DNA of 64,000 bases from Paramacrobiotus metropolitanus (Eukaryota; Tardigrada; Eutardigrada; Parachela; Macrobiotidae), in the NCBI RefSeq assembly GCF_019649055.1, contig NW_026570223.1:620001-684000 (forward strand), read 5' to 3'. The position numbers were made by a program, and so were the translations under genes. Positions 36,655-58,103 of the stretch are shown here, in pieces. Every line of letters begins with the position of its first letter. Within the stretch, counting starts at the first letter, position 1. Under the pieces are notes generated by a model. That model was not told the DNA's origin and did not search any database. It worked only from the letters and a program-made list of their open reading frames with translations.

Positions 36655-36660
36655 GTTCCC
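36655..36660. repeat. Target-site duplication GTTCCC, left
   Basis: Identical to 58098-58103. Six bp is the duplication length known for Polinton integration. Confidence 0.93.
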
Positions 36661-36783
36661 AGCAGCAGGAGGGTCGGGTCCCTCATAGAGTTTGCCCAAT
36701 ACAGGTGGGGCAGCCGCAATACAAGTGGCGGCTGTCTCTACCACAACCTCCCCAAGTATTAGCCGAGGAGGCAGTTACGTTAA
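36661..36783 (+). repeat. Left terminal inverted repeat
   Basis: Bases 36661-36743 are a perfect reverse complement of 58015-58097 (83 bp). After a diverged stretch, a second matched block (GGCAGTTACGTTAA, 36770-36783) pairs with 57964-57977. Confidence 0.95.
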
Positions 36784-39739: not shown

Positions 39740-40389
39740 TGTTTTGTTTGTTTTTTGTAGTTCGTTGCGTATATTTTTTGTATACTTTCCAAGGAACCGT
39801 AGGTGTTCAGAATACACGCTGTTACTGCACTTGGTTTTACTGGTAAAGATGATTACTGTTATTATGGTATTATTGATTTTACTGTGTTATTACGTTTTTT
39901 TTTTGTATTTGCTAATACGATTCTTGAGTTTGCAGTTGTTGGTATTTTGCTTGTACGTAAACGCTAAATAAGCTGCGTTATATCAAAGTACAGTAACACT
40001 GTATTAAAATTTACCGCAGTAATTACAACTTGGATTAAAAACAGCAGGTAAGTTATAAGAATCCTAAAATTTTCGAGATTCGACGGCTACCCGTGGCATT
40101 ATCAGATTCAGATGCAGCGTAGAACTGCAGCGGACTCGAACTGCCATTCACCGGCAATTTAAATTCGAATCTTGCACACGGTACGCTGGTGACGTAATTG
40201 AACTCGAAGAGAAGAATGGGAGGCGGGGCTTCCGATTCTTCGTTCTCAGTATAGCGAATCGTGGGAAAGCCAAGTCCAGCTGGTTTTGCCTTGCAATTTT
40301 AGCCAGTTCTTCTACAGTCTCCATTCTCACTGAGTCAAAGTTCTCTTCTTCCACATTTCTGGCCAATAATTGTTTTCCTATGGTTTATA
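39740..40389. other. Gap between first and second Polinton genes
   Basis: 3' flank of the first gene and presumed promoter of the second. Nothing else recognised. Confidence 0.4.
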
Positions 40390-42640: not shown

Positions 42641-42952
42641 ATGGAATCATTTGGCACATCTGCTTATAGTTCCGTGGAAAGTCGCGTACAAACGTTCCCT
42701 GCTGAAAAGTTTACTTTACGTATTCGAACTCCACGTCGTTTAGCCGAATGTGGATACATTTTTGTTCCTTCGGAAGGTTACTTTCTCGCTGAGTGTTTTT
42801 GTTGTGGTCATCAACTGACACACTGTGATAGTGATACCGACTTTTGGGCGGCTCACGCTACGTATAACCCTGACTGTCGCTACTTGCAAGCACTGCGACC
42901 GGCTTTTGCGCAGAAATTTCGAGACGTAAATAAGTACTGGCAGGATTACTGA
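42641..42952 (+). CDS. Single-BIR protein A
   Basis: 103 residues forming essentially one BIR domain: the N-terminal arginine and RLAECGYIFVP segment, then CFCCG, a Trp-x2-His spacing (FWAAH) and a final Cys, giving the CX2C...H...C zinc ligand set. BIR domains bind caspases or IAP-binding motifs, and viral and transposon copies can block apoptosis of the infected cell. No RING finger follows. It lies about 100 bp upstream of a second BIR gene, and the two could be exons of one gene, but the stop codon precedes the only good donor. Confidence 0.75.
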   Translation: MESFGTSAYSSVESRVQTFPAEKFTLRIRTPRRLAECGYIFVPSEGYFLAECFCCGHQLTHCDSDTDFWAAHATYNPDCRYLQALRPAFAQKFRDVNKYWQDY

Positions 42953-43050
42953 GGTAAATTCGTTGTTTTTTTTTTAACAGTACACGTATCGCCTGCCCAT
43001 AAGACATAAGCTCTAACAAAATTGATGTTTTCGTGTGTTTCGTAGATTAA

Positions 43051-43673
43051 ATGGCTCCGTACAACAAACGGATGGCGCATTATCTAGCCCGCCTTAACAG
43101 CTTCAACCATGTCAAGCAATGGCAGTTCACCACTCAAACGAAAGAAGAGATGGCTGCATCTGGATTCTCCTATACGTGGTCGAACCTTATACACTGCTAT
43201 CAGTGCGGACTTGGATTGAGGGATTTACTGCCGTACGAAAACGTAGATGTGCACCATGCTCGCTACCGCCCTCGGTGTCCAGTCATTGTGAGTCGAATCG
43301 GTTTGGATGCTATCGACCAGATCCGCCAGCTCCAGGAAAGCGCTTACGCATCAAGCTACCGCGTTCGGGATCTGTGGGACCGGGAAGGACCCAGCAATGG
43401 TAATATATGTTTCTGTTGCGACGACGACGCTTTACGACCCCCTAAAGTTATGAAGACACCGGAAGAGCGCTTGTCTTCATATCCAACAGAGTGGAAATCC
43501 CATATTGTCCACCCAGTGCGACTGGCTGCAGCAGGATTTCAATGGAACGGAGGGGACACGGCTGGGTGTGTTTACTGCGGACTGATAGTAAGCAGCTGGA
43601 AAAAGGCGACGATCCCGAAGAAGTTCACCGTACTCTAAAGCCTGAGTGTAAAAGCTTGTGCTGTTTGTATTAA
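43051..43673 (+). CDS. Double-BIR protein B, frame step in second BIR
   Basis: The first BIR (residues ~15-80) has MAASGFSYTW, CYQCG and HHARYRPRC, fitting the zinc ligand order. A linker with an extra CFCC follows. The second BIR starts near residue 150 (RLAAAGFQWNG, CVYCG, SSW). The frame then steps by -1 in an A run at 43600-43604: the original frame ends at 43638, while the continuing BIR signature (GDDPEEVH, PEC) is in the neighbouring frame, ending at 43673. No RING is seen. The likely role is interference with host cell death. Confidence 0.72.
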
Positions 43674-43711: not shown

Positions 43712-44413
43712 ATGTATTGTGTGTTAAAAGAACTTCCGCGCTTCCAAGCGCCGTTTGGTATGTGTGTATGTGGGCCAACCATGTCGGGCAAAACGCAGTT
43801 CGTGTTATCTTTAATTAAAGACCGAGAGCTGTTGATTAGTCCACCTCCGCATCGAATAGTTTACTGCTATGGTGAATGGCAAAATGTTTTTGATGATCTA
43901 CAAGCGTCTGTTGAATTCATTAAGGGCATTGAAACAGTTCTGGAGTCTCCTAATTTTTTCGACACTAATCAACAAACACTTTTAATAATCGATGACTTGG
44001 CTAGCGACATATGCAAAGACGTGCGCTGCTCAAATTTATTTACGCGCGGCATCCATCATAAGAAGGTTTCCGTTGTGTTATTGCTTCAAAACCTGTACAA
44101 ACAGGGAAAGTCAATGAGGGATATTACGTTGAACTCTCAGTACCTTGTTTTGTTTAAGAGCGTGCGTGACGTTAATCAGATCAACCTACTTGCTCGGCAA
44201 ACCGGACTCAGTCAGCTGCCAGACGCGTACCGCAAAGTCACTTCTGTGCCTTTTGAACCGCTCATTATTGATATGAGATCAACGTGCCCGGACTATTTAA
44301 GGGTGAGATCACACGCACTTCCCGAACAATCGGCGCGAATTTATGTTAAAGCTAATTGCAACGATATCCCCCAACCATGTCGGAACGAGTCAAAGCCCTC
44401 GCCCCTTTTGTGA
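43712..44413 (+). CDS. DNA-packaging ATPase (FtsK/HerA superfamily)
   Basis: 233 residues. The Walker A motif is GPTMSGKT at residues ~22-29 and Walker B LLIIDDLA near 90. A sensor-like Gln (VVLLLQNLY) and a C-terminal arginine-containing segment follow. The length and motif order fit the A32-like packaging ATPases of Polintons, which translocate genomic DNA into capsids. The frame is intact. The gene starts just after the BIR block and its end overlaps the next gene by 37 bp, as in compact virus-like gene blocks. Confidence 0.88.
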   Translation: MYCVLKELPRFQAPFGMCVCGPTMSGKTQFVLSLIKDRELLISPPPHRIVYCYGEWQNVFDDLQASVEFIKGIETVLESPNFFDTNQQTLLIIDDLASDICKDVRCSNLFTRGIHHKKVSVVLLLQNLYKQGKSMRDITLNSQYLVLFKSVRDVNQINLLARQTGLSQLPDAYRKVTSVPFEPLIIDMRSTCPDYLRVRSHALPEQSARIYVKANCNDIPQPCRNESKPSPLL

Positions 44414-44703: not shown

Positions 44704-45103
44704 ATACTTTATTGTTCCTCGCCGCGTCATGGAAGAAAAACTTCACGAAAAGATCCAAGTCAACAGGGAGCCTCCCGAAGCAAAAGCCGTTGTTTCGTTG
44801 GACAATTTAATTGCGCAAACTTTGCAGCGAAAGGATATAAGTGAATACGAGAAAGCGAGCCAGCTTTCCAGTATTCTGGAACGTTTTCTTGCTTTAAAAC
44901 CAAAAGCTATGCCGGATGAAAACCCCGTAGAGCCGCCCAAATACGTGCCTCCAGTACCACCATCGCCACCAAAGAAGCCGCGCCCTAGTCGTCCCAAAGA
45001 AAAATCTGAGGAAATACCTATTCCAGTTGAACGGTTGCGGTCTGGCAGAAAGCAAACAGGGAACGGGATGAAACGCAAAATTAACTGGATTACTTTATCA
45101 TAA
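44696..45103 (+). CDS. Small Polinton protein with helical domain and Pro-rich tail
   Basis: 135 residues. The N-terminus is MDEYFIVPRRVMEEKLHEK. A helical segment (NLIAQTLQRKDISEYEKASQLSSILERFL) resembles a short conserved domain that follows the ATPase in many Polintons. A proline/lysine-rich tail (PPVPPSPPKKPRP) ends the protein. The start overlaps the previous stop by a few bases, suggesting translational coupling or one transcript. Function unknown, probably a minor virion protein. Confidence 0.55.
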   Translation: MDEYFIVPRRVMEEKLHEKIQVNREPPEAKAVVSLDNLIAQTLQRKDISEYEKASQLSSILERFLALKPKAMPDENPVEPPKYVPPVPPSPPKKPRPSRPKEKSEEIPIPVERLRSGRKQTGNGMKRKINWITLS

Positions 45104-45178
45104 TGTCTGGATTTTTGCCGTCGGTTATTAGGTTGTGCCGCTTCTTCAAAATTAACTGTGTTTCTAATTGCTGCAACG

Positions 45179-46230
45179 ATGGATCGTCTAATGAGAAAAT
45201 ACCTCGACCCTCGTCATCCCGGAAGTTTTGGAGGCGTCGAGCGATTCCGAAGAACACTAAAACCAGGACCAACAAACGGAGAGCCCAGGAGATACTGGAA
45301 GAGATCGATGCATACACTGTCACCAAAGAAAGTCGGAAACGGTTTCCACGAAATCCAGTGATAGTTACCAATCTGCGGCAGCAGTACCAAGCTGATTTGG
45401 CAGACTTGTCGAAATATTCCAAAGAGAACGATGGGATAAAATACTTGCTCTTTGTCATTGATTGCTTTTCCAAAATGCTGAGCATCCAAGCCTTGAAGGC
45501 CAAAACCGGAAAAGAAACACGTGATGCCCTTCAGAAAGCCTTCGAACAACTAGGATTTCCTGAAAAGCTGCAGTACGACAAGGGCACGGAAATGCTGAAC
45601 ACAACTGTTCGCGCATTTCTGAAAGACCACGACGTACAGTTCTTTACCTCCCAGAACGAAGACGTAAAGTGTGCCATGGCGGAAAGAGTAATACGTACAA
45701 TTAAATCCCGCATGTTCCGATTGTTTCGCTACCGCGTCAGCACCCGCTACATTGACAAGTTATCTGATATGGTGCACTCATATAATCACTCACCACACAG
45801 CGCTCATGGAATGCGACCCATCGACGTCAAGCAAGAGAATTCTCTGCTTGTCTATAACAAGTTATATCCAGCGCTAACAGTGAAAAGACCTCGGTACAAG
45901 GTGAACGATGCCGTGCGAATTTCGATTCGAAAAGGAAAAGTGGAAAAAGGATACACCTACCGATTTAAGGAGGAGATCTTCTTCATTCAACAAGTCATTC
46001 CTCATCCTGTACCGGTCTACGTTTTGAAAGACTATCAGGACAATACCATTGACGGAAAATTTTACGAACCAGAATTATCTCTCGTGCGCAACGTGCCTGA
46101 CAAAGAGCACACTGTGGACTTTATTGTAAAGCGTCGCGGAAAGAAGGTGTTAGTCCGTTGGTTAGGTTACGGACCCGAACACGATCAGTGGATCGATGAA
46201 AAATGTATGAAGGTGCGCCGTTCTACCTAA
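45179..46230 (+). CDS. Retroviral-like integrase with chromodomain, frame step near N-terminus
   Basis: The catalytic core has the first Asp in YQADLADL, the second in YDKGTEM and the Glu in MAERVIRTIK, the D,D-35,E pattern of Polinton and retrovirus integrases. The C-terminus has a chromodomain-like segment (TVDFIVKRRGKKVLVRWLGY) that could target chromatin. The conserved N-terminal block (YLDPRHPGSFGGVERF) is in the frame beginning at ATG 45179, while the core is in the -1 frame, open from 45103. The switch lies in an A run near 45259-45262. The overlap with the minor capsid gene is 28 bp. Confidence 0.85.
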
Positions 46231-47547: not shown

Positions 47548-48885
47548 ATGGCTCTGCTGATGATGGAAAATTCCGAACCAGCGATGCAGTTGGACAACCA
47601 GCTGTTTGCTTTACCGGCGACCTTGACTGATCGATGGCGTACCGAGCATGAGAAACTTAATCCAACAACGATCCTGACAGACAACGGTTCGGCTGGTGAC
47701 ATAAACTTCTACATTCCTCCCAGTACCGCTGGTCTGCTCAGCCTGGGTGATATGATGCTGGAACTCGAGGTCGGTATAAAGGTTAAGAAGGGAGCAGCCG
47801 ATTGGGATCTAATTACCAACACCGACGGAGTGGCTCCAGTTAACAACTTTCTGCATTCATTGTTCTCTTCGTGCCATGTCACCGTGGCGAATCGGCTCAT
47901 CTCGGATGCGGCAACGTTTTATCCTTATCGAGCATACCTGGAATCATTGCTATCCTATGGCGTGGATGCCCAGAGATCACAGTTGACATCAGCAGGATAT
48001 TACGCCGACACCTCAACTAAAATGAACGACGAAAAGAAAACAACGGTGAAAAAAGCCGCAAAGCCTTGTTCAGCGGAAGCAACTACGTACAACTATCAGG
48101 CAAATTGTTCGCTGATCTGTTCGATCAAAGTAAACCGCTCTGTACCGGCGTACCAATCAACATCCGACTGGTGATGAGCCGACCTGAATTCTGTTTGCGA
48201 GTGTGGGATGCTGACGCAACAAAGCAGTTCAAACCGTTTATCCGGAACGCACGACTATCTGTCCGTCGATACATTCCAGCACCAGATTTCATGACAGCTG
48301 TAGCGTCAGAAATGCTGAAGAAGACCGTGAAATACCACATTGAACGCGTAGTGATGCGTGTTTCTGATATTCCCCAGAAAACTCAAAGCACTGTAGTAAG
48401 CAACTTGCAAATCGGACAGATTCCCAAAGTTATTTTCATTGGGTTTTTGGAAAGCGATGATTTCCACGGCAGTTTCAAGAGTAATCCTTTCAACTTTCAA
48501 CATTTTAATATCAATCAGATCAGCGTGGAGGTGGACGGTCAAAGCTATCCAACAAAACCCTATACTGCCGATTTTGGACGTTCGCTGTCATTGGAATGTT
48601 ATGATGGGTTGCTGGACACATTGGGATATCGCACTCATGCGCACAACAGCTCTCCATATTAATCGAACCGCTTACAACGGCGGATACACGCTGTTCGGGT
48701 TCGATTTAACGCCTGGACATACTGGAAGAGGACCGCTGACTTTGGTGAAGCAGGGCAATTTAAGCGTTTCGGTTAATTTTGACAAACCGCTGGAAAAGAC
48801 CGTAATGATGGTGGCTATGTTAGTCTACGACAGCATCATTGAGATCAATCAGCATCGGCAACTGATTGCGGACTTTTCGACATGA
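47548..48885 (+). CDS. Major capsid protein (double jelly roll), two frame steps
   Basis: The recognisable order of Polinton major capsid segments is present: GDINFYIPPS, VNNFLHSLFSSCHVTVAN and SYGVDAQRSQL in frame 1, SGKLFADLFDQ and NIRLVMSRPEFCL in frame 3, and GYTLFGFDLTPG near the C-terminus back in frame 1. The first step is in an A6 run at 48049-48054. The second, near 48655-48661, is in the opposite sense and ends at TAA 48660. The stop at 48883-48885 overlaps the protease start as ATGA. Confidence 0.86.
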
Positions 48886-49400
48886 ACACCGACCAAATCC
48901 TCAGCGCTCTCCAATCAAACCCGGCTACAAATGCTGCACTACGCGGAGTGTTTGCCAGCGATAAAGTGCCCCCTGCGCTACTGCCATATCCTGGAGCGGC
49001 AGTGATTAAGATTGACCCAGCGGACCAAGATGGATCGCACTGGATTGCTGTTTACCAAGAAAAAGATGGAGTTTTGGAAGTGTTTGATTCGTTTGGGAGG
49101 AAACTGGGTTCATATACTAAGAATTTTGCTGATTTATGTTCATCTAATCGGATCGTAGAGCAAGCCGAACAACTGCAATCAGAATACACTACAGTCTGTG
49201 GCCAATACTGCTTGTTTTTTATACTTCGTCGTGTTAGTGGCGAAACTTATACTAATATTGTGCACTTGTTTACTGAGAATCGAGCAAGCAACGACAAGAT
49301 GGTCTGCCAGTATGTGAATTCTTATTTTGACATCAATACAAAGATAATTGACGGTTCATTCATCCGTCAAATATGTAAACGAATATCGGAATTAAAATGA
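48882..49400 (+). CDS. Adenovirus-like cysteine protease (adenain family)
   Basis: 172 residues with an intact frame. The catalytic histidine is in GSHWIAVY (~residue 53), the acidic residue in VFDSFGR (~70), and the Gln/Cys in TVCGQYCLFF (~110). This His-Asp/Glu-Cys order is that of the adenovirus maturation protease and ULP1-like peptidases. It should cleave capsid precursors during maturation. The start overlaps the major capsid stop (ATGA), consistent with translational coupling. It is the last rightward gene of the morphogenesis block. Confidence 0.9.
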   Translation: MNTDQILSALQSNPATNAALRGVFASDKVPPALLPYPGAAVIKIDPADQDGSHWIAVYQEKDGVLEVFDSFGRKLGSYTKNFADLCSSNRIVEQAEQLQSEYTTVCGQYCLFFILRRVSGETYTNIVHLFTENRASNDKMVCQYVNSYFDINTKIIDGSFIRQICKRISELK

Positions 49401-49490: not shown

Positions 49491-50547
49491 TTAAATAAGC
49501 TTAGCGAACATAGCACGAAACTCCAGAGCATTAAGTTCCAAATACCCCTTAACGTCCAGTCCAACAACTTGCCCAAGATCCACTTGGTCAGCTTCCAACA
49601 GAACAGCCTCCACATAGCGCGACTCCACAATAGCCTTTTCAGCCGCTGCCCACTCGTCATCGCTGGCACTCCCACAGCTGACTTTTCCATTGCGACCGCG
49701 CATTTGGTGGATGAGTTCAGTGAACTCTTCAGCCACTTCCTATAATCAAAACAAACTGATTACCGCACAAGTCTTTCAGAAACAGAGATCAGCATAAAAT
49801 TACACAAATAAACGGAATGCTCACCTCTTTGAGCTTGTCATAAGCCAGAGCGGATTTCAAGGTCTTTGGAACATTGTTGGCTTCATCCACTCCCAGGAGT
49901 TCTTTCAGCAGCGTCATATCCATAACCAGTTCTTTGAGACCGTCGTACGTCTTCAGTCCAAAGGTCACGCCAGCTTTCGTGGGAATCAGGTCTCCGTTCT
50001 GACCGAAGGTGTAACGTCTTACGGTGGCCGTGTTGACACGGTTGTAACGTCCCCAGCCAAAATACAGTCCACTCTCCAGCGCATACAGAGGCGTCAGCTT
50101 ACCGTCGGTGCCACAGTTCTGAGAATTCTTGTCCAGGTCCGCTTTACCACTCATCATCAAGGCACACAGGCGCAAGAAACCAGGCTTCTTTACGGTGATG
50201 GACTTCTCCAAGGTGCGGCGGTAGGTGTCGTCGCTTTGCTTTTTCCACTCCCCGATGACGATGGCAGAAACCCCATCTTGGAAGCGGGCGTAGACGTACT
50301 TCTCGAACCCAATCTTGTACACGTTGGATCCTTCATGAGAAAAGGCATGCCGCGGATGCTTGGTGTCATCTTGCTCCTTGAACTTCTTGGCAAGGTTCAG
50401 CTTGATATCGTCCATCTCCGGTGCGCGTCGCTTGGCAAAGGTGCGGGTTTTGAGAGGCGTGGCTGGAATCTCGCGGGCAATGTTGCTGGTGGAAGGCTTA
50501 GGCGACGCGGCGCGCTGCGAGGAAATGAAATCAGGGATAAATTCCAT
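49491..50547 (-). CDS. Unknown Polinton protein, possible PC4-like ssDNA-binding domain
   Basis: Two exons, 50547-49825 and 49739-49491, join in frame (323 residues), with a GTGAGC donor and a TATAG acceptor. The N-terminus is Ser/Pro-rich with a basic patch (RTFAKRRAPEM). Residues ~80-140 (KYVYARFQDGVSAIVIGEWK...LEKSITVKKPGFLRL) vaguely resemble the beta-sheet core of the transcription coactivator PC4. The rest (TPLYALESGLYFGWGRYNRV) is unfamiliar. PC4 assignment is tentative and needs a profile search. It is divergently arranged with the 50895 gene, with which it may share a 347-bp promoter region. Confidence 0.6.
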
Positions 50548-50894
50548 GGCAAATGGAGTAAGAAGTACTACAGCGTTCGAATAAAGTAAAGGTCAAACAA
50601 AAAACTGTTGCAAACTAAAATTGTCTGATATCTGGAACTGATCGAGGGTTTTTATGCGTTGCCTGACATCTGCCTTCATATACAAAATTTGAAAAAAGCA
50701 TAATGCAAGACAAAACAGTAGCACTTTTGCCTTGCAAGTTGAAGGTAAACTTGAGGCGTACGAGCAAAGACGTACGTTTTTGTGTACTTGGGCCAAGCTT
50801 TCCCTTGCAAAAATATTATTTTTGAACCGTTTCAGTACAAAAGGGAGGCGGCGCTATAGAGTACGGTTCAGTTGGTTCAGCCAAAAATAGTAAA
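50548..50894. promoter_or_regulatory. Divergent intergenic region
   Basis: Lies between two divergently transcribed Polinton genes, so both promoters should be here. No clear TATA box seen. Confidence 0.4.
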
Positions 50895-51398
50895 ATGGCT
50901 GTAAGGTGTGTTGTAGACGCTGATTGGTTTGTAATTGACAAACAAAAATACCTCAAGCAGTTGTCTTTTTTCTGTTTGGAAAAAGCCGAGGTCGGCCAGT
51001 ACACATTTACATTACCACGCACTGCTGCCAAATGCGCGGGTGATTTGGAAAGGCAAGCTCGTCACTCCCACGGTCTGGTTTGGCATACCTACGGGGATTA
51101 TCGCCACAATCAAACAGCACTGGCCTTTGAAGATATTTTTACTAAAGTCGGGCGACCAGCTGACGTCACATTTTATGCGAAAGGGCTTGAAAAGTGCCGC
51201 CTGCTAGAACAGTTTCTGCCAGAAGTGATCAACTTGGAAGAATACCATTGCCCGCCATTTCGTAAATTAACTGCATCAGATCAGACAACGCAACGCAAGG
51301 CGGTTGTTTTCGGATTATGGTTGTATAAGAATGGTGCGGACTACCAATGTTGTCGCCACAGCAAAGTTGAACTGTCACCTAAACCTCAGCGAGATTGA
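50895..51398 (+). CDS. Unknown Polinton protein, possibly nuclease-like
   Basis: 167 residues beginning MAVRCVVDADWFVID. Asp residues at the first strand, then alternating strands and helices (FFCLEKAEVGQYTFTLP; TFYAKGLEKCRLLEQFLP) and a conserved-looking CPPFRKL, give the impression of an RNase H-fold exonuclease-like domain. I cannot confirm it. The stop lies 68 bp into the TBP-like gene, so the two overlap and may be co-expressed. Confidence 0.6.
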   Translation: MAVRCVVDADWFVIDKQKYLKQLSFFCLEKAEVGQYTFTLPRTAAKCAGDLERQARHSHGLVWHTYGDYRHNQTALAFEDIFTKVGRPADVTFYAKGLEKCRLLEQFLPEVINLEEYHCPPFRKLTASDQTTQRKAVVFGLWLYKNGADYQCCRHSKVELSPKPQRD

Positions 51399-51846
51399 AA
51401 AACGGTTGCCCTTGGCACAATATACACCACGCTCCTTTTCCGGTTTGCTACTGCGGCGGATCACGCTGCCGAAGGGCCACTGTCAGCTGTACGTTAACGG
51501 TAAAGTGACGGTCAATGGAGGGAAAAACTTGGAAGAAGCGCGTTCTCTTTTGGAGTATTTCATACGACTACTACGTAATATTGGCTACGAATGTTATGCG
51601 ACTGAATATCGAATCGTGAACATTGTAGGCACTCATGATTTCGGCCAGCGGTTTGATTTAGACAGTGTCAGTAAACTTTTAAATGTTCCATACTGTGCCG
51701 ACAGATTTCTTGGTTTGCGCATAAAGTTACCAGAATGTACTGCGGTTTTGTTTGCTAGTGGTCGCTGTAATTTTTTGGGAGCTAAAACAGAAGCCGATAT
51801 GACATGGGCCATGATTGATTTAGTATTAAGTCTGCCAATAAACTGA
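51331..51846 (+). CDS. TATA-binding-protein (TBP)-like protein
   Basis: 171 residues with two imperfect repeats of the TBP saddle. Repeat 1 has NVVATAKLNCHLNL, YTPRSFSGLLLRRITLPK and LYVNGKVTVNGGKN. A linking helix (FIRLLRNIGYECYATEY) and IVNIVGTHD follow. Repeat 2 has DRFLGLRIKLPE and VLFASGRCNFLGAKT. These match in order and spacing the landmarks of eukaryotic TBP: Y-x-P-x-x-F, R-x-x-x-P-K/E, the F/Y-x-S/N-G-K/R strand, NIVG and GAK. The protein is as short as the TBP core, with no N-terminal extension. The family binds TATA DNA and nucleates RNA polymerase II pre-initiation. Here it would direct element transcription. Start ATG 51331 is chosen because homology begins at once. Confidence 0.87.
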   Translation: MVRTTNVVATAKLNCHLNLSEIEKRLPLAQYTPRSFSGLLLRRITLPKGHCQLYVNGKVTVNGGKNLEEARSLLEYFIRLLRNIGYECYATEYRIVNIVGTHDFGQRFDLDSVSKLLNVPYCADRFLGLRIKLPECTAVLFASGRCNFLGAKTEADMTWAMIDLVLSLPIN

Positions 51847-51889: not shown

Positions 51890-54800
51890 TCACTGCAACA
51901 CGTAACCATACGGTAGAGTATTGTAACAATTACCAACAATTCGTCTTTTATCGTATGTTAGACTTAAACGTTTAGACAAATCAACTTGGCGCAACACCAT
52001 TGATTTTTTGACACGCTGAATCGATTCAGGATATTCAGCTACAAGAAAATCAGTTTTCTTATGCAAAACATCAACCATTGACTCGAACGTGATGCTCTCG
52101 CTGGTGTGTCCGTTCAGCGTAAAACCTTTGACTTTGGCGACACTTTTCCCATCATTAGTCTTGTAGGAATACGTCTTGGGACCGAGACTGACAAACTGAG
52201 TGATATACTGATCGGGCTGCAATTCGTCCGTTAGGTCCCCCAAAAACTTGCCGGTTGGAGGAACAAATACTCCCGGCTTCTCCACAAAAATGATGGAATC
52301 TGTAAAGTAAGGTTCTTAGTCCACCATACTAGGTACAAGTTTTGAAACAGTTAATTACCGGTATCGAAGTAAAGCAGTGTATCTTGGACTTGTTCCATGT
52401 AGCCGTATAAATGGAGCCGGGCCCAGCATGTCGTAAACCTATCAAAAAAGCACTATCAGCAAAAACACTGATCCTTCAAGAAGCAACTACTTACGCAGCC
52501 AAGACAACGTTCGTATGAGGGTTCTGGTCAATAAATAACTTTTCCCTGGTGTACGCAACTTGCAGAACATCCTCGCTGAACATATCCCACGAGTGGATGT
52601 GGAATTCACCAGAAAGAAGCATTTTGTAAAACTCCTGCGGGCAAGTTAGGTACTTGGTGTTCGGCTTGTTGTCCTGCATACCCAGGCGACCCCAGAAGCT
52701 GCAAGTACAAATCCAGTTAGCCTCAGTTTACAAAACGCGCAACAGCAGATATTACCTATTCAAACACAACTTGGCAAGCGCCCTCATGCCAGGGTTGTTC
52801 TCAATCTTTTCGCGGTCCAACTGAATGCCTTCATGATCTTTAAAATCTCGTAGAAATTGATCTTTCTGGTCGTCGGTTGTCATATCCGCTGGCCAGCCAC
52901 TTGCTTCCGTTTTTATCTTGAGGAACCGATCAATGTAGTCCGCAAACAACCTTTCTTCCGACTGCTCAAAGTGCCACACTTCCAACATCTTTGTGATGAC
53001 ATAACCGCGCTCGATTGCAGCGTGCAGCTCTGGCGTGCCTGTAAAGGTTACCGTGGGTGTTGTCGTGGGTGTTCAGAATTTCAACGGTACATACTTACAC
53101 CATGTTCCAGTAAGCGTTCTTTCTTCGTCGGAATGTGCACAAGGGGCGTTAAGTTGTTTCGCAGCGCATGTGTGGCACAGAGGAAATACCAGCTTACCGT
53201 TGGAGCGGTATGGCAGAATCGGCAGGTAAAGATCCGGAGGCGGTAAGATTTTGCAGTGCACGATGCCAAAGTAGTGCGCGATTTCCCAAAGTCTTTAACG
53301 ATAATGATGGGGTGTCCGATCGGATATTTCTTGTTCTTGTTGACAAACGGATACTCGCTGCAGACATCAAAATACCGGATCTTCTCTTCATTGCTAACGC
53401 TGTGATACAACTTTGTGGCATTTGTTCGTCCGCCGAAGAATGCATCACGAGGGTTTATCGGTTGGGTGACGGTGATTTCGTCAACAAAATCCGCGAAATC
53501 TGGTACCTGCTTTACCTGGTCGTCGAACTCGTGCTCCCAGATGACAAACAGTTCGTGTCCCATGTCCCGGATGTACGTGTCGCGTTGCAGGGTTTCTTCG
53601 TAAATTTTGCTCATTGGTAAGTTTCTGAACGGGTGGACGGTATCCGGCGTTGTGCATTCAGGACATCCGTGGTACCAGCAGCCGTGGAACTCAAAAACCT
53701 TGCCTGTTGCTGCAGAGTACCCATCCACAAAATAAGGTCCAACTTTAAACTCGTTCCCACTTGCTCGCGTCTGAATTGTGCAGTTCTCTTCCAGTTCCAT
53801 CCACTGCATCCACTTTAGCGCTTTAACCGACTGGTTGCGGTTCACGTTGTATCCTTGCGGTGGAATCAGTCCAATCTGGTTCGCCTTCAAAATGTTGGAC
53901 CTCCAATACAAACCACACAATCCAGCGATAGTCATCGAGGACGAGAATGGGCAAATGCCGTTACTGATGCCCAAAAACAAATTTCGAAATTGGAGACAGC
54001 ACTTGCGGAGTACGGTGACATCGTTCCGACAATAATCCACAAATTCTTTACGAAAGTCGAACGTGTTGTTCTTGGTGGCGACCTCCATATTGTACCATTG
54101 CTCAAACGTTTCACGGTCTTTCTTGTTCATAAACTTGGACCCGTACTGCTCCTTGGTAGGGAATTCGGTAACCTGGTCCCAGTTTTCCGGTCGATTAAAT
54201 CGGTGCGGAAAGGTGCCCTTTGACGTGTCCTTGATACCAAAGGTAGCCGGCCATTTGGACAAACTTTGAGGATTGTAATTGATGCTGTCGCGGAATCGAA
54301 TGTTGAGTTGGAGAACATCCAGCTGCATGATCTTACCGCCGTTTAAAATAACTTTAGGAGTAATACCGTTGCTGAGAAGCCAGTTCAGTATAAAATAACC
54401 GTCAAAGGCCTATAAAACGGCAAAATAAAGGACCATAAGAAAAAGACTGTACAATTTTACCTTGAAATTGTGGGCGATTATAATGTGATCGCGATGGTCT
54501 TCACTAAAGAGGAATCGACAAAGAGGATCTGTAATGTCGCAAAGCGGTTCGCCGTCATTCGGAAATATCCACTCTTCGCCTTCATCATTCTGAACAACCT
54601 GTATAACATACCGTGGGTGTTACCGTGGGTGTGTCGCAGAACTTCTTGTTACACAACTAGTGTACGGCATAATGCCGTGGGTGTTACCGCGGGTGTCGTA
54701 TAAAATTATGATTGCAAACTAGGAACTATGCTTACCGCGAGGTTTGGATACAGCCGCCCATCCTCAGCAACGTAAGTTTCAAAGTCGAAAAACAAAAATT

Positions 54801-56181
54801 GGGCATCCGAATACTGCATCTTCTGGAAAGGAGTAAGTTTCTGCGGCTTCATAAAACAGCGGTGATCTCCGATGACATGCTCCTGGCACGTTTTGCAAAA
54901 CATTTCTCCACAACGGTGTGCGGATCCCAACTTTCTCTTCATTAAGGAGTACACACAACCACATTGAGTACACATTTTGACGGTACTGCAGATACTCCTT
55001 CGACTGCGAAACAGCACATCATTTCCCGGGCCCAGCTTGTGATGGTCGAAGCAAGATTGGCCATGAAACTTGCGATTGCAATCAGCGCAAAGCATAATGT
55101 TGACAATATCCATGGGACAATCCGCTCGCAGACACTGATTACACTGACCGCTACATCTGTGACTTCTACGGTTGTTGTATCCTTTATTGCAGTTAAAACA
55201 CCAGTAACAGCGACTGAAAAATGCCGGCATGGAAGTCAAGACATCAAAGTGCCGGTTATGTAATAAAAGGCAGATATGTTTGTCCTCCAGGTTCCCGCTG
55301 TACACAATGCTGCTGGCTTGCATCGTACTCACTACCACTATCTGGTAACCTGGCAATACTTTTTCAAAAGCCGAAATGTCTGCAAGGGTGTACTCACGGA
55401 TTGGAAGGCCGGCTTCTTCAATCAATTCCCGGGACAAACGCAGAATTTCTTGTTTTCCTTTCGCTATATGTCGGGCGTAATCTTTTCGGCCATCGGCAAA
55501 CGCTTTTCCGATAACGAGGGCACGGGCCATACAGATATCGTCCACGTTGTTCACCAAAATCACTGACGTCATCCTCTTCAGTCTGTCGTACAATAACTTG
55601 GGTACGTCGCGGGCACACCGACCGGAAGGAATCTCCGTATGTTCTACAGAAACCCCAAATGAATCATCAATGGCAAATTCTTGGTGGGAATTCAGCACTT
55701 TTGAGATTTCTGCCATCCAGCGGCGCACTGTCAGCTGTGATCGTAAAGTTGGTGGAGTCCAAATAGGGAACGACAAATACGATGATTCCACAGACACTCG
55801 GACGTACTGATGAGCGGCCACACCCGCTAGCACAGCATCCAAAACGTGGTCCAAGATACCCACTATTACTGCCGGTGCGTCACAAAATTTCACAGCATCC
55901 AAATCAAATACATGCACGTCAAAGCGTTTGAAATGCATATTGTACGTCTTCGAAAACCGGTACCCATTCCGTTCCACCGTAACATGATCGACAACATTAA
56001 AATCTTCAGGGACGCCACCCCCAGCTTGGGGATCTTCATGAACCCAGTCCTCCAATTCTGCCAACTCGGCAGCATCTTGGAGGTCTTGCTGCGATAAGGC
56101 TTCGTGCTGATCTACCCAATCTTCAAGTGCCGCGAGAGCAGCCGCATCAACAAGATCTTCCTCCGTTAATTCGTAATCCAT
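51890..56181 (-). CDS. Protein-primed DNA polymerase B (pPolB), seven exons
   Basis: Exons: 56181-54736, about 54599-54461, 54409-53099, 53038-52756, 52698-52495, 52438-52359 and 52299-51890; about 1290 residues. The N-terminus has an acidic repeat and a cysteine/histidine-rich zinc-binding region (residues ~320-460). Exonuclease motifs follow: ExoI FFDFET at the end of exon 1, ExoII AHNFK across exons 2/3, ExoIII YCRNDV. Polymerase motif A is YFDVCSEYP, motif B includes KLCLN/SFWG across exons 4/5, and motif C DTDSI is split by the last intron. A -1 frame step lies at 53282-53284 in exon 3. It replicates the element from its terminal protein. Introns 1 and 3 contain ACACCCACGG pairs. Confidence 0.92.
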
Positions 56182-56577: not shown

Positions 56578-57625
56578 TTACTCAACCAAAACAACGTCGT
56601 CGTCCTTGCCATTGTCGCTGTCCTTCTTGTCGCCGTCGTCCTGGCCGCCGCCTTCGTGGTCACTGCCGTCCTCTTCATCCACTTCGTCCTCCGCCTCCGA
56701 GCACGAGTCCGGAATTACGTCGTCGCCTCCACTGCTGTCTGCTTCGTCTTCAGCCTCCGAGCACGAGTCCGGAATTACGTCGTCGCCTCCACTGCCGTCT
56801 GCTTCGTCTTCAGCCTCCGAGCCCGAGTCCGGCATTTCTTCATCGCTGCTGTGCATCCAGTCTGGAGTTTCGGCACCAGGCAAAATCCAAGTGTGATCTA
56901 CGAAGACACAAAATTAGGCTTTTTTGAAGGCGTAACTCGAAAACTTCCTGAAAGTTGGTTACCTGATTCGGCCATGGATTCGTCGTCGTCATTGTCTTCT
57001 TCTTCGCTGTCCGTTGCCGGTTCTATAAACATGAAGCGCTCTGAAAAATTACATAATTTAACTAACCGTGGGTGTTACCGTGGGTGTTACATGGGCCTAT
57101 CATTATAAAACTGCATTGACCAACCTTTCATTTCTTCGTCGCTGTCACTCTCAAAGTCCCCGCCGTCACCATCCCAACGCACGACCTGCGGTACCGCCAA
57201 AACCAGTTGCCGATGATGGGCTCTGGTGACGGTATTGGAGTAGAGGTCCACGGTCCGCAGGGCTGGCAGGTTCTTCAGTGGTTCCAGCTGTTGGACAGTG
57301 ATGATGCCGTTATTGGCCAACGTCAGGCGCTTCAGATTAGGCGTGGTCCGGGCCAGGGCCGCCAGCTGGGGGTTGTTCTCCGCGAACCCGAGACGGTTGT
57401 CATTCAGCTGGAGGAACGTCAGGTTCGGCATCAGTGGCAATCCGACAACGGAGGTCAATCCGCACGCGTTAGCCGACAAACAGCGCAGGTTGTAAAACGC
57501 TGCAGCGGCAGACCCGTAAAGCTGGTAATGGGGAACTCGTCCAGGATGATGGTCTTGGCATCGTCCGGTTTGCCCTCCAAATAACCAACAATGTCGTACT
57601 GGGAATACACACCGCTATGAAACAT
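56578..57625 (-). CDS. ANP32-like acidic leucine-rich nuclear protein
   Basis: Exons 57625-57125, 57040-56963 and 56897-56578. The first exon has leucine-rich repeats in the ANP32 order: DAKTIILDEF, LSANACGLTSVVGLPLMPNL, LQLNDNRL, NLKRLTLANNGI, LEPLKNLPALRTVDLYSNTVT, and a cap with VPQVVRWDGDGGDFESDSDEE. Exons 2 and 3 encode a low-complexity acidic tail, with a 60-bp (20-residue) internal repeat. ANP32 proteins are histone chaperones and cofactors of viral polymerases in animal cells. There is one frame step near 57508-57512. Captured from a host gene or long co-evolved with the element; intron structure was kept or regained. Confidence 0.84.
56694..56843 (-). repeat. 60-bp tandem repeat in the ANP32-like acidic tail
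   Basis: CCTCCGAGCACGAGTCCGG starts at 56694, 56754 and (one base changed) 56814. Each unit encodes 20 acidic/Ser/Gly residues. Confidence 0.9.
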
Positions 57626-57963: not shown

Positions 57964-58097
57964 TTAACGTAACTGCCGCTTCGCATTTTAGTGCCAACAT
58001 ACGGTGGGGGGTTCTGGTAGAGACAGCCGCCACTTGTATTGCGGCTGCCCCACCTGTATTGGGCAAACTCTATGAGGGACCCGACCCTCCTGCTGCT
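57964..58097 (-). repeat. Right terminal inverted repeat
   Basis: 58015-58097 mirrors the left terminus perfectly over 83 bp. The inner block TTAACGTAACTGCC (57964-57977) matches the left inner block at a slightly different distance (11 bp offset). Confidence 0.95.
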
Positions 58098-58103
58098 GTT
58101 CCC
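58098..58103. repeat. Target-site duplication GTTCCC, right
   Basis: Same six bases as 36655-36660, directly adjoining the terminal AGCAGC inverted repeat. Confidence 0.93.

Follow-up and report, generated by a model that had tools for sequence, protein, structure and literature searches.

A TATA-binding-protein homologue with an altered DNA-reading face in Polintons of the tardigrade Paramacrobiotus metropolitanus

In a 64,000-nucleotide stretch of the Paramacrobiotus metropolitanus genome (the window; positions below count from its first letter), a Polinton carries an intact gene for a homologue of the TATA-binding protein (TBP). TBP is an old, selected and near-standard gene of Polintons in this tardigrade, and the Polinton-type proteins form a clade separate from the host TBP. 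Judging from aligned sequences, the residues that read the DNA groove are rewritten family-wide with the wedging aromatics kept, and we think it fairly probable that the protein is an element-specific TBP, which would bring the host polymerase to non-canonical boxes.

A TBP-fold protein encoded between Polinton termini

The gene and the features that define the surrounding element are the following:

51331..51846, + strand: TBP-like protein, 171 aa, two saddle repeats
36661..36759, + strand: left terminal inverted repeat (TIR), beginning AGCAGCAGG, preceded by the GTTCCC target duplication at 36655-36660
57999..58097, - strand: right TIR, followed by the GTTCCC target duplication at 58098-58103
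43712..44413, + strand: A32-type packaging ATPase (PF04665, E 1.4e-7)
45103..46230, + strand: RVE-type integrase (PF00665, E 2e-12), with a chromodomain match below cut-off (PF00385, E 0.0037)
51890..56181, - strand: DNA polymerase B (PolB) gene, in frames 54706-56181, 53081-54328 and 51890-52285

A sequence-only reading of the window had proposed a two-repeat TBP of bare-core size at this position, and the proposal is borne out: the frame is open from the ATG at 51331 to a stop ending at 51846, the size is that of a bare core, and the landmarks then named (YTPRSF, NGKVTVNGGK, IVNIVG and FASGRCNFLGAK) are all present. PF00352 matches the open reading frame (ORF) in two stretches (Pfam, E 5.1e-31; score 106.8 bits, cut-off 22.9), and phmmer returned TBPs from the PDB (best E 2.3e-19); identity to cellular TBPs (PDB 1cdw, 1ytb, 3eik) is 24-30%. 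Few proteins of eukaryotes and archaea are as strongly conserved as TBP. The AlphaFold2 model (mean pLDDT 95.9) has the saddle fold, all 44 Foldseek matches in the PDB at E <= 0.001 being TBP chains or TBP fusions, with TM-scores by query length of 0.85-0.93 to solved TBPs. Among the diverged tardigrade copies that we call the D group, L042, L045 and L046 have basic, Ser/Thr-rich C-terminal extensions.

The same reading had placed the gene between Polinton TIRs and facing PolB, and here too it was right. The TIRs and the target duplication set the span of the element at 36661-58097 (21,437 bp); 94 of the 99 outermost bases are identical between left and right, and GTTCCC flanks both ends as a perfect 6-bp duplication, the usual size for Polintons. 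TBP on the + strand and PolB on the - strand converge. PolB frame 53081-54328 matches PolB_2 (PF03175, E 4.4e-25), frame 51890-52285 gives a weak DNA polymerase match (E 0.015), and frame 54706-56181, with no family match, is placed by position alone. Several features of the class, as in other Polintons/Mavericks, are present: TIRs, 6-bp target duplication, PolB, RVE integrase and A32-type packaging ATPase. PolB lies in several frames (introns and breaks are not distinguished) and the putative capsid frames overlap, so this copy may be decayed, the TBP frame nonetheless being intact.

TBP is linked to Polinton genes across the genome

Searched against the genome, the window protein gave at least 150 matches (150 of 288 candidates scored) and a diverged copy, L052, at least 151 (150 of 297 scored). 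Together they make at least 216 TBP loci, fragments included, 166 of them at least 430 nt long; the set combines the 150 rows of the window search, 17 further rows of 150 and 80 rows from L052, with same-strand neighbours joined and repeat rows dropped by eye. Among the 150 ATPase copies scored, from 425 candidates, 130 have a TBP within 15 kb, where 5.7 would be expected from density; contrary to the sequence-only reading, which did not count TBP as a standard Polinton gene, in this host it nearly is one. PolB agrees, with a TBP within 15 kb of 62 of 79 loci (one row each, 79 of 507 candidates scored). Seen from the TBP side, an ATPase or PolB among the scored copies lies within 15 kb of 151 of the 216 loci and of 126 of the 166 longer ones; in a first set of 155 TBP loci, 100 had an ATPase within that distance (about 4 expected). 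Among the other 65 loci are the gene for the host TBP, a TRF-like gene of the host and copies close to contig ends, and some of the 65 probably have an ATPase outside the scored 150.

In most cases the distance between TBP and ATPase falls into one of a few classes. In the window type, TBP lies 7.2-8.2 kb downstream of the ATPase on the same strand; in others it is divergent from the ATPase, at about 1.1 kb or at 0.5-0.7 kb, or upstream of it on the same strand, at 0.7 or 1.4-1.6 kb. A handful of copies are outliers. Around the host TBP, at C4:406165-406662, neither ATPase nor PolB was scored within 15 kb. The TRF-like host gene candidate (L049, C66:349292-349534) is a very diverged paralogue of TBP, and no Polinton gene was scored within that distance of it. 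At C140:233254-253432, three D-group copies lie within about 20 kb, and again no ATPase and no PolB was scored in the 15 kb around them.

Purifying selection and a separate clade

Between diverged copies the gene is under purifying selection: among eight copies of the window clade, dN/dS is 0.035-0.176 in 23 pairs (2 of the 28 pairs are saturated), and in a second clade the median is 0.144 over 17 of 21 pairs. The six pairs among four distant lineages are all saturated.

In a tree of 40 rows, rooted on Bathyarchaeota TBPs and with giant-virus and mirusvirus TBPs left out, all 27 Polinton-type proteins, metagenome proteins among them, form one clade (99/95) and the host TBP falls among eukaryotic TBPs (95/92), beside an insect TBP (81/45). 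The nearest outside row to the Polinton-type clade, P0074, sits on a long branch (97/90), and the placement of the most diverged rows is unsure, since the program reported a meeting of long branches (L043). A quick tree of 71 rows agrees, with 45 Polinton-type rows in one clade. These trees bear on the idea that a host TBP was recently captured or domesticated, or that a Polinton inserted around a host paralogue. Giant viruses carry TBPs, so capture is feasible in principle; nevertheless, forcing the window clade together with the host TBP is rejected (p-AU 0.0004), the host gene lies among its eukaryotic counterparts and is unlinked to scored ATPase or PolB, and a TBP lies near 130 of the 150 scored ATPase copies, so that we give recent capture almost no credence. 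An ancient capture by an ancestral Polinton is likely, and forms part of the reading that we prefer, that of an element-specific TBP.

By score, 57 database proteins belong to the TBP family (E <= 7.6e-37; the host's own excluded), and the family is therefore probably not limited to one tardigrade; two of the 57, P0059 and P0060, are on equal-sized contigs and may be one gene. P0061, named 'TATA-box-binding protein-like [Paramacrobiotus metropolitanus]' in the database, shares its start with locus L026, which has a later part that the database model lacks; this automatic name is the sole earlier notice of Polinton-type TBPs that we found. In a search of species genomes, 3 of 147 pattern stretches hold, all of them Bathyarchaeota TBPs at 28-30% identity. 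No relative was confirmed in IMG/VR, from which records very near the window's genome may be left out, with the TBP sequence (3 pattern stretches), the TBP alignment (119), the window ATPase (2) or P0074 (5), and phage records gave no match.

A rewritten groove face with conserved wedges

To compare DNA faces, 65 Polinton-type rows (15 tardigrade, 50 metagenome or database) were set against 11 cellular TBPs (the host TBP and ten from databases), four diverged D rows being left out; a site counts as fixed when at least 90% of rows share a residue. Of the 163 sites compared, 17 are fixed for the same residue in both sets, and another 11 are fixed for a residue that differs between them. Seven of these 11 fall among 14 positions, listed before the comparison, that we take to contact the groove (hypergeometric 1.8e-6): L114Q, F116Y, V122T, T124N, L205V, V213N and T215L. 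The remaining fixed switches, outside the contact list, are T112H, S118N, A135L and Q158V. L205V is found in 11 of 15 tardigrade and 49 of 50 metagenome rows, and V203T is also frequent (12/15 and 41/50). All six members of the canonical groove set (L114, V122, T124, L205, V213, T215) are replaced in the window protein, and each is replaced in at least 64 of the 65 rows.

What is kept is equally consistent. Positions 99, 190 and 207 are Phe in 65/65 rows, position 116 is Tyr in 63/65, and the groove asparagines N69 and N159 and R105 have a frequency of 1.00. The window protein has F, Y, F and F at the four wedge sites 99, 116, 190 and 207, which are all aromatic in 15/15 tardigrade, 4/4 D and 50/50 metagenome rows. 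The rewritten DNA-reading surface hints at a private promoter code; the change of specificity, like a TBP function of the protein, is putative.

All 14 contact positions appear in a table of DNA-binding null mutants of yeast TBP, which names F116Y, T124N, V203T and L205V, as well as I194R, the window residue (PMC2265533). Changes tabled as abolishing yeast TBP DNA binding are thus fixed here, on a protein of bare core size, as would be expected of a decoy: a TBP mimic that has lost TATA reading and binds host TFIIA, TFIIB, TAFs, NC2 or Mot1, and thereby lowers transcription of host genes or evades silencing. We regard this as unlikely, because a pure decoy has no need of the conserved DNA face just described (wedge phenylalanines in 65/65 rows, Tyr116 in 63/65, the two asparagines and R105 in all), and because the window clade has lost its TFIIB-contact residues, the opposite of what a decoy for TFIIB would need.

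Candidate boxes upstream of element genes

If an element-specific TBP reads non-canonical boxes, these might be retained upstream of element genes. One candidate precedes ORF-X, the conserved gene overlapping the start of TBP:

50765..50894, + strand: ORF-X/TBP upstream region, box AGTACAAAAG with TTCAGTT about 30 nt on, the box retained in diverged copies

The box reads AGTACAAAAG in 6 of 7 usable rows and AGTATAAAAG in L002, and is common to three groups (window; L004-L005; L002 with L006-L008) whose TBP genes are separated by synonymous distances of about 0.9-3.1. Upstream of PolB, TATAAAAT occurs in 5 of the 6 relatives located (7 fetched) and CATAAAAT in the remaining one; the sequence preceding PolB in the window itself does not align at the box. 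Upstream of the neighbouring PC4-like gene, CATAAAA is found in 7/7 usable rows. L003 was disregarded for ORF-X and PC4, its match beginning at residue 112 or 124, L061 was kept for PolB though its match began at residue 27, and L063 had no PolB match. TATTAAAG, found upstream of the ATPase in 7/7 rows, was dropped, as it overlaps the stop codon of the preceding gene. Boxes of the YAYAAAA type upstream of ORF-X/TBP, PolB and the PC4-like gene are therefore candidate targets.

The retention of TATA-like boxes upstream of element genes, on top of the TBP fold itself, would also suit a canonical mimic that raises the dose of TBP at ordinary TATA boxes. With 7 of 14 groove-contact sites changed and fixed, some of them to residues reported as null, we find this improbable. 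Of the suggestion in the sequence-only reading that the protein recruits polymerase to the element's own promoters, recruitment is kept as the best mechanism, and a plain TATA reader is given up, the TATA-reading residues having been replaced.

An inverted-repeat type of box, TTTGCATAGGAG..CTATGCAAA, was seen by eye upstream of PolB, PC4-like and ORF-X genes (L004, L005, L059, L062); a window variant, TTGCCTTGCAA, lies near 40287, 50725 and 57820, three times in the element and nowhere outside it. It is possibly an upstream control element.

Neighbouring genes and the rest of the element

The other features of the element are:

50895..51398, + strand: ORF-X, conserved gene upstream of TBP, the frames overlapping by 68 nt
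49789..50547, - strand: PC4-like protein (transcription coactivator p15 fold), two tandem units predicted, divergent from ORF-X/TBP
47548..48662, + strand: probable major capsid region, two overlapping frames (47548-48174, 48066-48662), by position only
48882..49400, + strand: probable adenain-like protease, by position and a match below cut-off (PF00770, E 0.0085)
42641..43638, + strand: two BIR (inhibitor-of-apoptosis) ORFs, 42641-42952 and 43051-43638 (PF00653, E 2.2e-9 and 1.4e-17)
57087-57479, - strand: leucine-rich-repeat ORF, inside the right end of the Polinton

ORF-X has at least 150 matches in the genome (150 of 163 candidates scored) and six relatives among database proteins; it matched no family in Pfam, PHROG or the PDB (best PDB E 0.68). 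Some of these relatives are on contigs matching in size those of two TBPs (20,036 and 3,376), which suggests that the ORF-X/TBP gene order may be shared elsewhere. In L025, ORF-X and TBP form a single frame of 403 aa, so that some elements may produce them jointly.

The PC4-like assignment comes from several comparisons. PF02229 matches the window protein below the Pfam cut-off (E 0.043) and reaches E <= 1 in 11/11 aligned copies (best 1.1e-8), and a profile of the family matches PDB PC4 (E 0.0035). With the model (mean pLDDT 70), the best Foldseek match is human PC4 (1pcf, E 1.9e-3 over 60 columns), none reaching E <= 0.001. The genome has 29 PC4 matches, not counting the too diverged copies of the window clade; for 27 there is a TBP within 15 kb, and in 25 of these cases it is on the opposite strand at a distance of 1.0-1.6 kb. 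The protein may be a partner of TBP or a single-stranded-DNA-binding protein of replication; the second role is equally possible because binding of single-stranded DNA in replication is also known for PC4-type proteins, and a replication-linked protein of phage T5 with a PC4-type fold was among the comparison matches.

This raises the question of whether TBP itself serves replication or packaging, bending DNA at the element ends or origin rather than at promoters. PolB and PC4-like genes surround it, a PC4 fold occurs in the T5 protein, and TBP adjoins the ATPase in several layouts; to our knowledge, however, no TBP acts in replication or packaging, and we hold this possibility to be as improbable as the canonical mimic.

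The putative capsid region matched no Pfam family, and its PHROG matches did not go below E 0.06. BIR ORFs are also present in some insect DNA viruses. A 10-mer, CCGTGGGTGT, occurs 13 times (either strand) in the Polinton and not at all in the remaining 42.6 kb of the window, often in close pairs (39062, 39074, 39085, 41163, 42049, 42061, 53051; further sites 54611, 54623, 54675, 56508, 57066, 57078).

Discussion

We propose that the Polinton TBP would still bind and bend DNA, at a box differing from the canonical TATA, and would nucleate pre-initiation complexes at the boxes of the element. Host TFIIB and RNA polymerase II would be borrowed, host TFIIB entering the proposal because no TFIIB was found in the Polintons: searched for in the genome as a control, TFIIB gave 6 matches at only 3 loci. 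The adjacent PC4-like protein might act with TBP or serve replication, and element genes could then be transcribed in competition with, or independently of, host TFIID. The full proposal, an orthogonal Polinton TBP in animals that would read a box poorly recognised by host TBP and so combine a private core-promoter code with host TFIIB, polymerase II and a PC4-like helper in several lineages, falls slightly short of an even chance in our estimation.

A number of observations weigh against this proposal. The strongest evidence against one uniform mechanism is the altered TFIIB contact of the window clade: E186, E188 and L189, which we take to be TFIIB-contact residues, are C, D and R in the window protein (YCADRF, with YFADRF or YFADPF in clade relatives, versus YEPELF). 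Of the 15 tardigrade rows, 4, 9 and 5 retain these residues, respectively, as do 4, 4 and 4 of the 4 D rows and 25, 49 and 36 of the 50 metagenome rows. The D rows hold the DNA-face rewrite in part (L114Q and T215L in 4/4, T124N in 3/4, F116Y in 1/4, V122T and V213N in 0/4; N69 is H in 2/4), which counts against a strict rule. The boxes TATAAAA, TACAAAA and CATAAAA are near-canonical and the host TBP could use them. Neither GTACAAAA (2 in the element, 3 in twice as long a stretch outside) nor TATAAAA (7 versus 19) is enriched; a private box defined by enrichment was rejected on these counts, and the boxes are put forward on their retention in diverged copies. The null-mutant table does not tell singly made changes apart (PMC2265533). 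Regarding selection, dN/dS rises to 0.43-0.48 in three very similar window-clade pairs (L006-L008) and, in a third clade made up of six near-identical copies, spans 0.115-0.884 over 14 of the 15 pairs. Since diverged copies are constrained and near-identical ones weakly or not, this fits selection on TBP during the cycle of the element, probably relaxed after insertion.

How does the Polinton TBP compare with known systems? There are several points of reference: (i), cellular TBPs, from which it differs in being carried by a mobile element and in its seven fixed contact switches; (ii), metazoan TRFs, diverged TBP paralogues in principle able to redirect initiation, whereas the Polinton gene is linked to ATPase and PolB in spacing classes; (iii), the TBPs of giant viruses and mirusviruses (Heterosigma akashiwo virus, African swine fever virus pB263R type), a virus-encoded TBP fold likewise, expected to serve viral transcription. 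The best BFVD match of our model is indeed the Heterosigma akashiwo virus TBP (TM 0.78, 16% identity). Two of the giant-virus and mirusvirus examples also encode TFIIB, and one of them RNA polymerase subunits, whereas the 21-kb Polinton has TBP and no TFIIB that we found. TBP is reported in 59% of mirusvirus genomes (PMC10132985).

An engineered precedent is TBPm3, a plant TBP with I152F, V161T and L163V that drives TGTA promoters (PMC4466886). By our alignment, which equates plant positions 152, 161 and 163 with yeast 194, 203 and 205, two of its three changes (V203T and L205V, yeast numbering) are in most Polinton rows; I194F is absent from the Polinton TBP, which has further changes in both repeats. 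As for Polintons themselves, a published gene list comprises pPolB, integrase, ATPase, protease, capsid proteins and several uncharacterized proteins, and the main text of that paper contains neither 'TATA' nor 'TBP' (PMC4028283). We found no report of a TBP in Polintons in the open-licence PMC literature, searched in part through top-ranked matches only.

If the proposed mechanism is true, a 21-kb virus-like transposon has its own promoter-recognition factor as a core gene. The Polinton TBP would then be a natural experiment in core-promoter specificity, in which scaffold and wedges were kept and the reading residues exchanged, making it possible to test how far TBP specificity can range, how Polintons may transcribe themselves and how their genes could be expressed beside those of the host.
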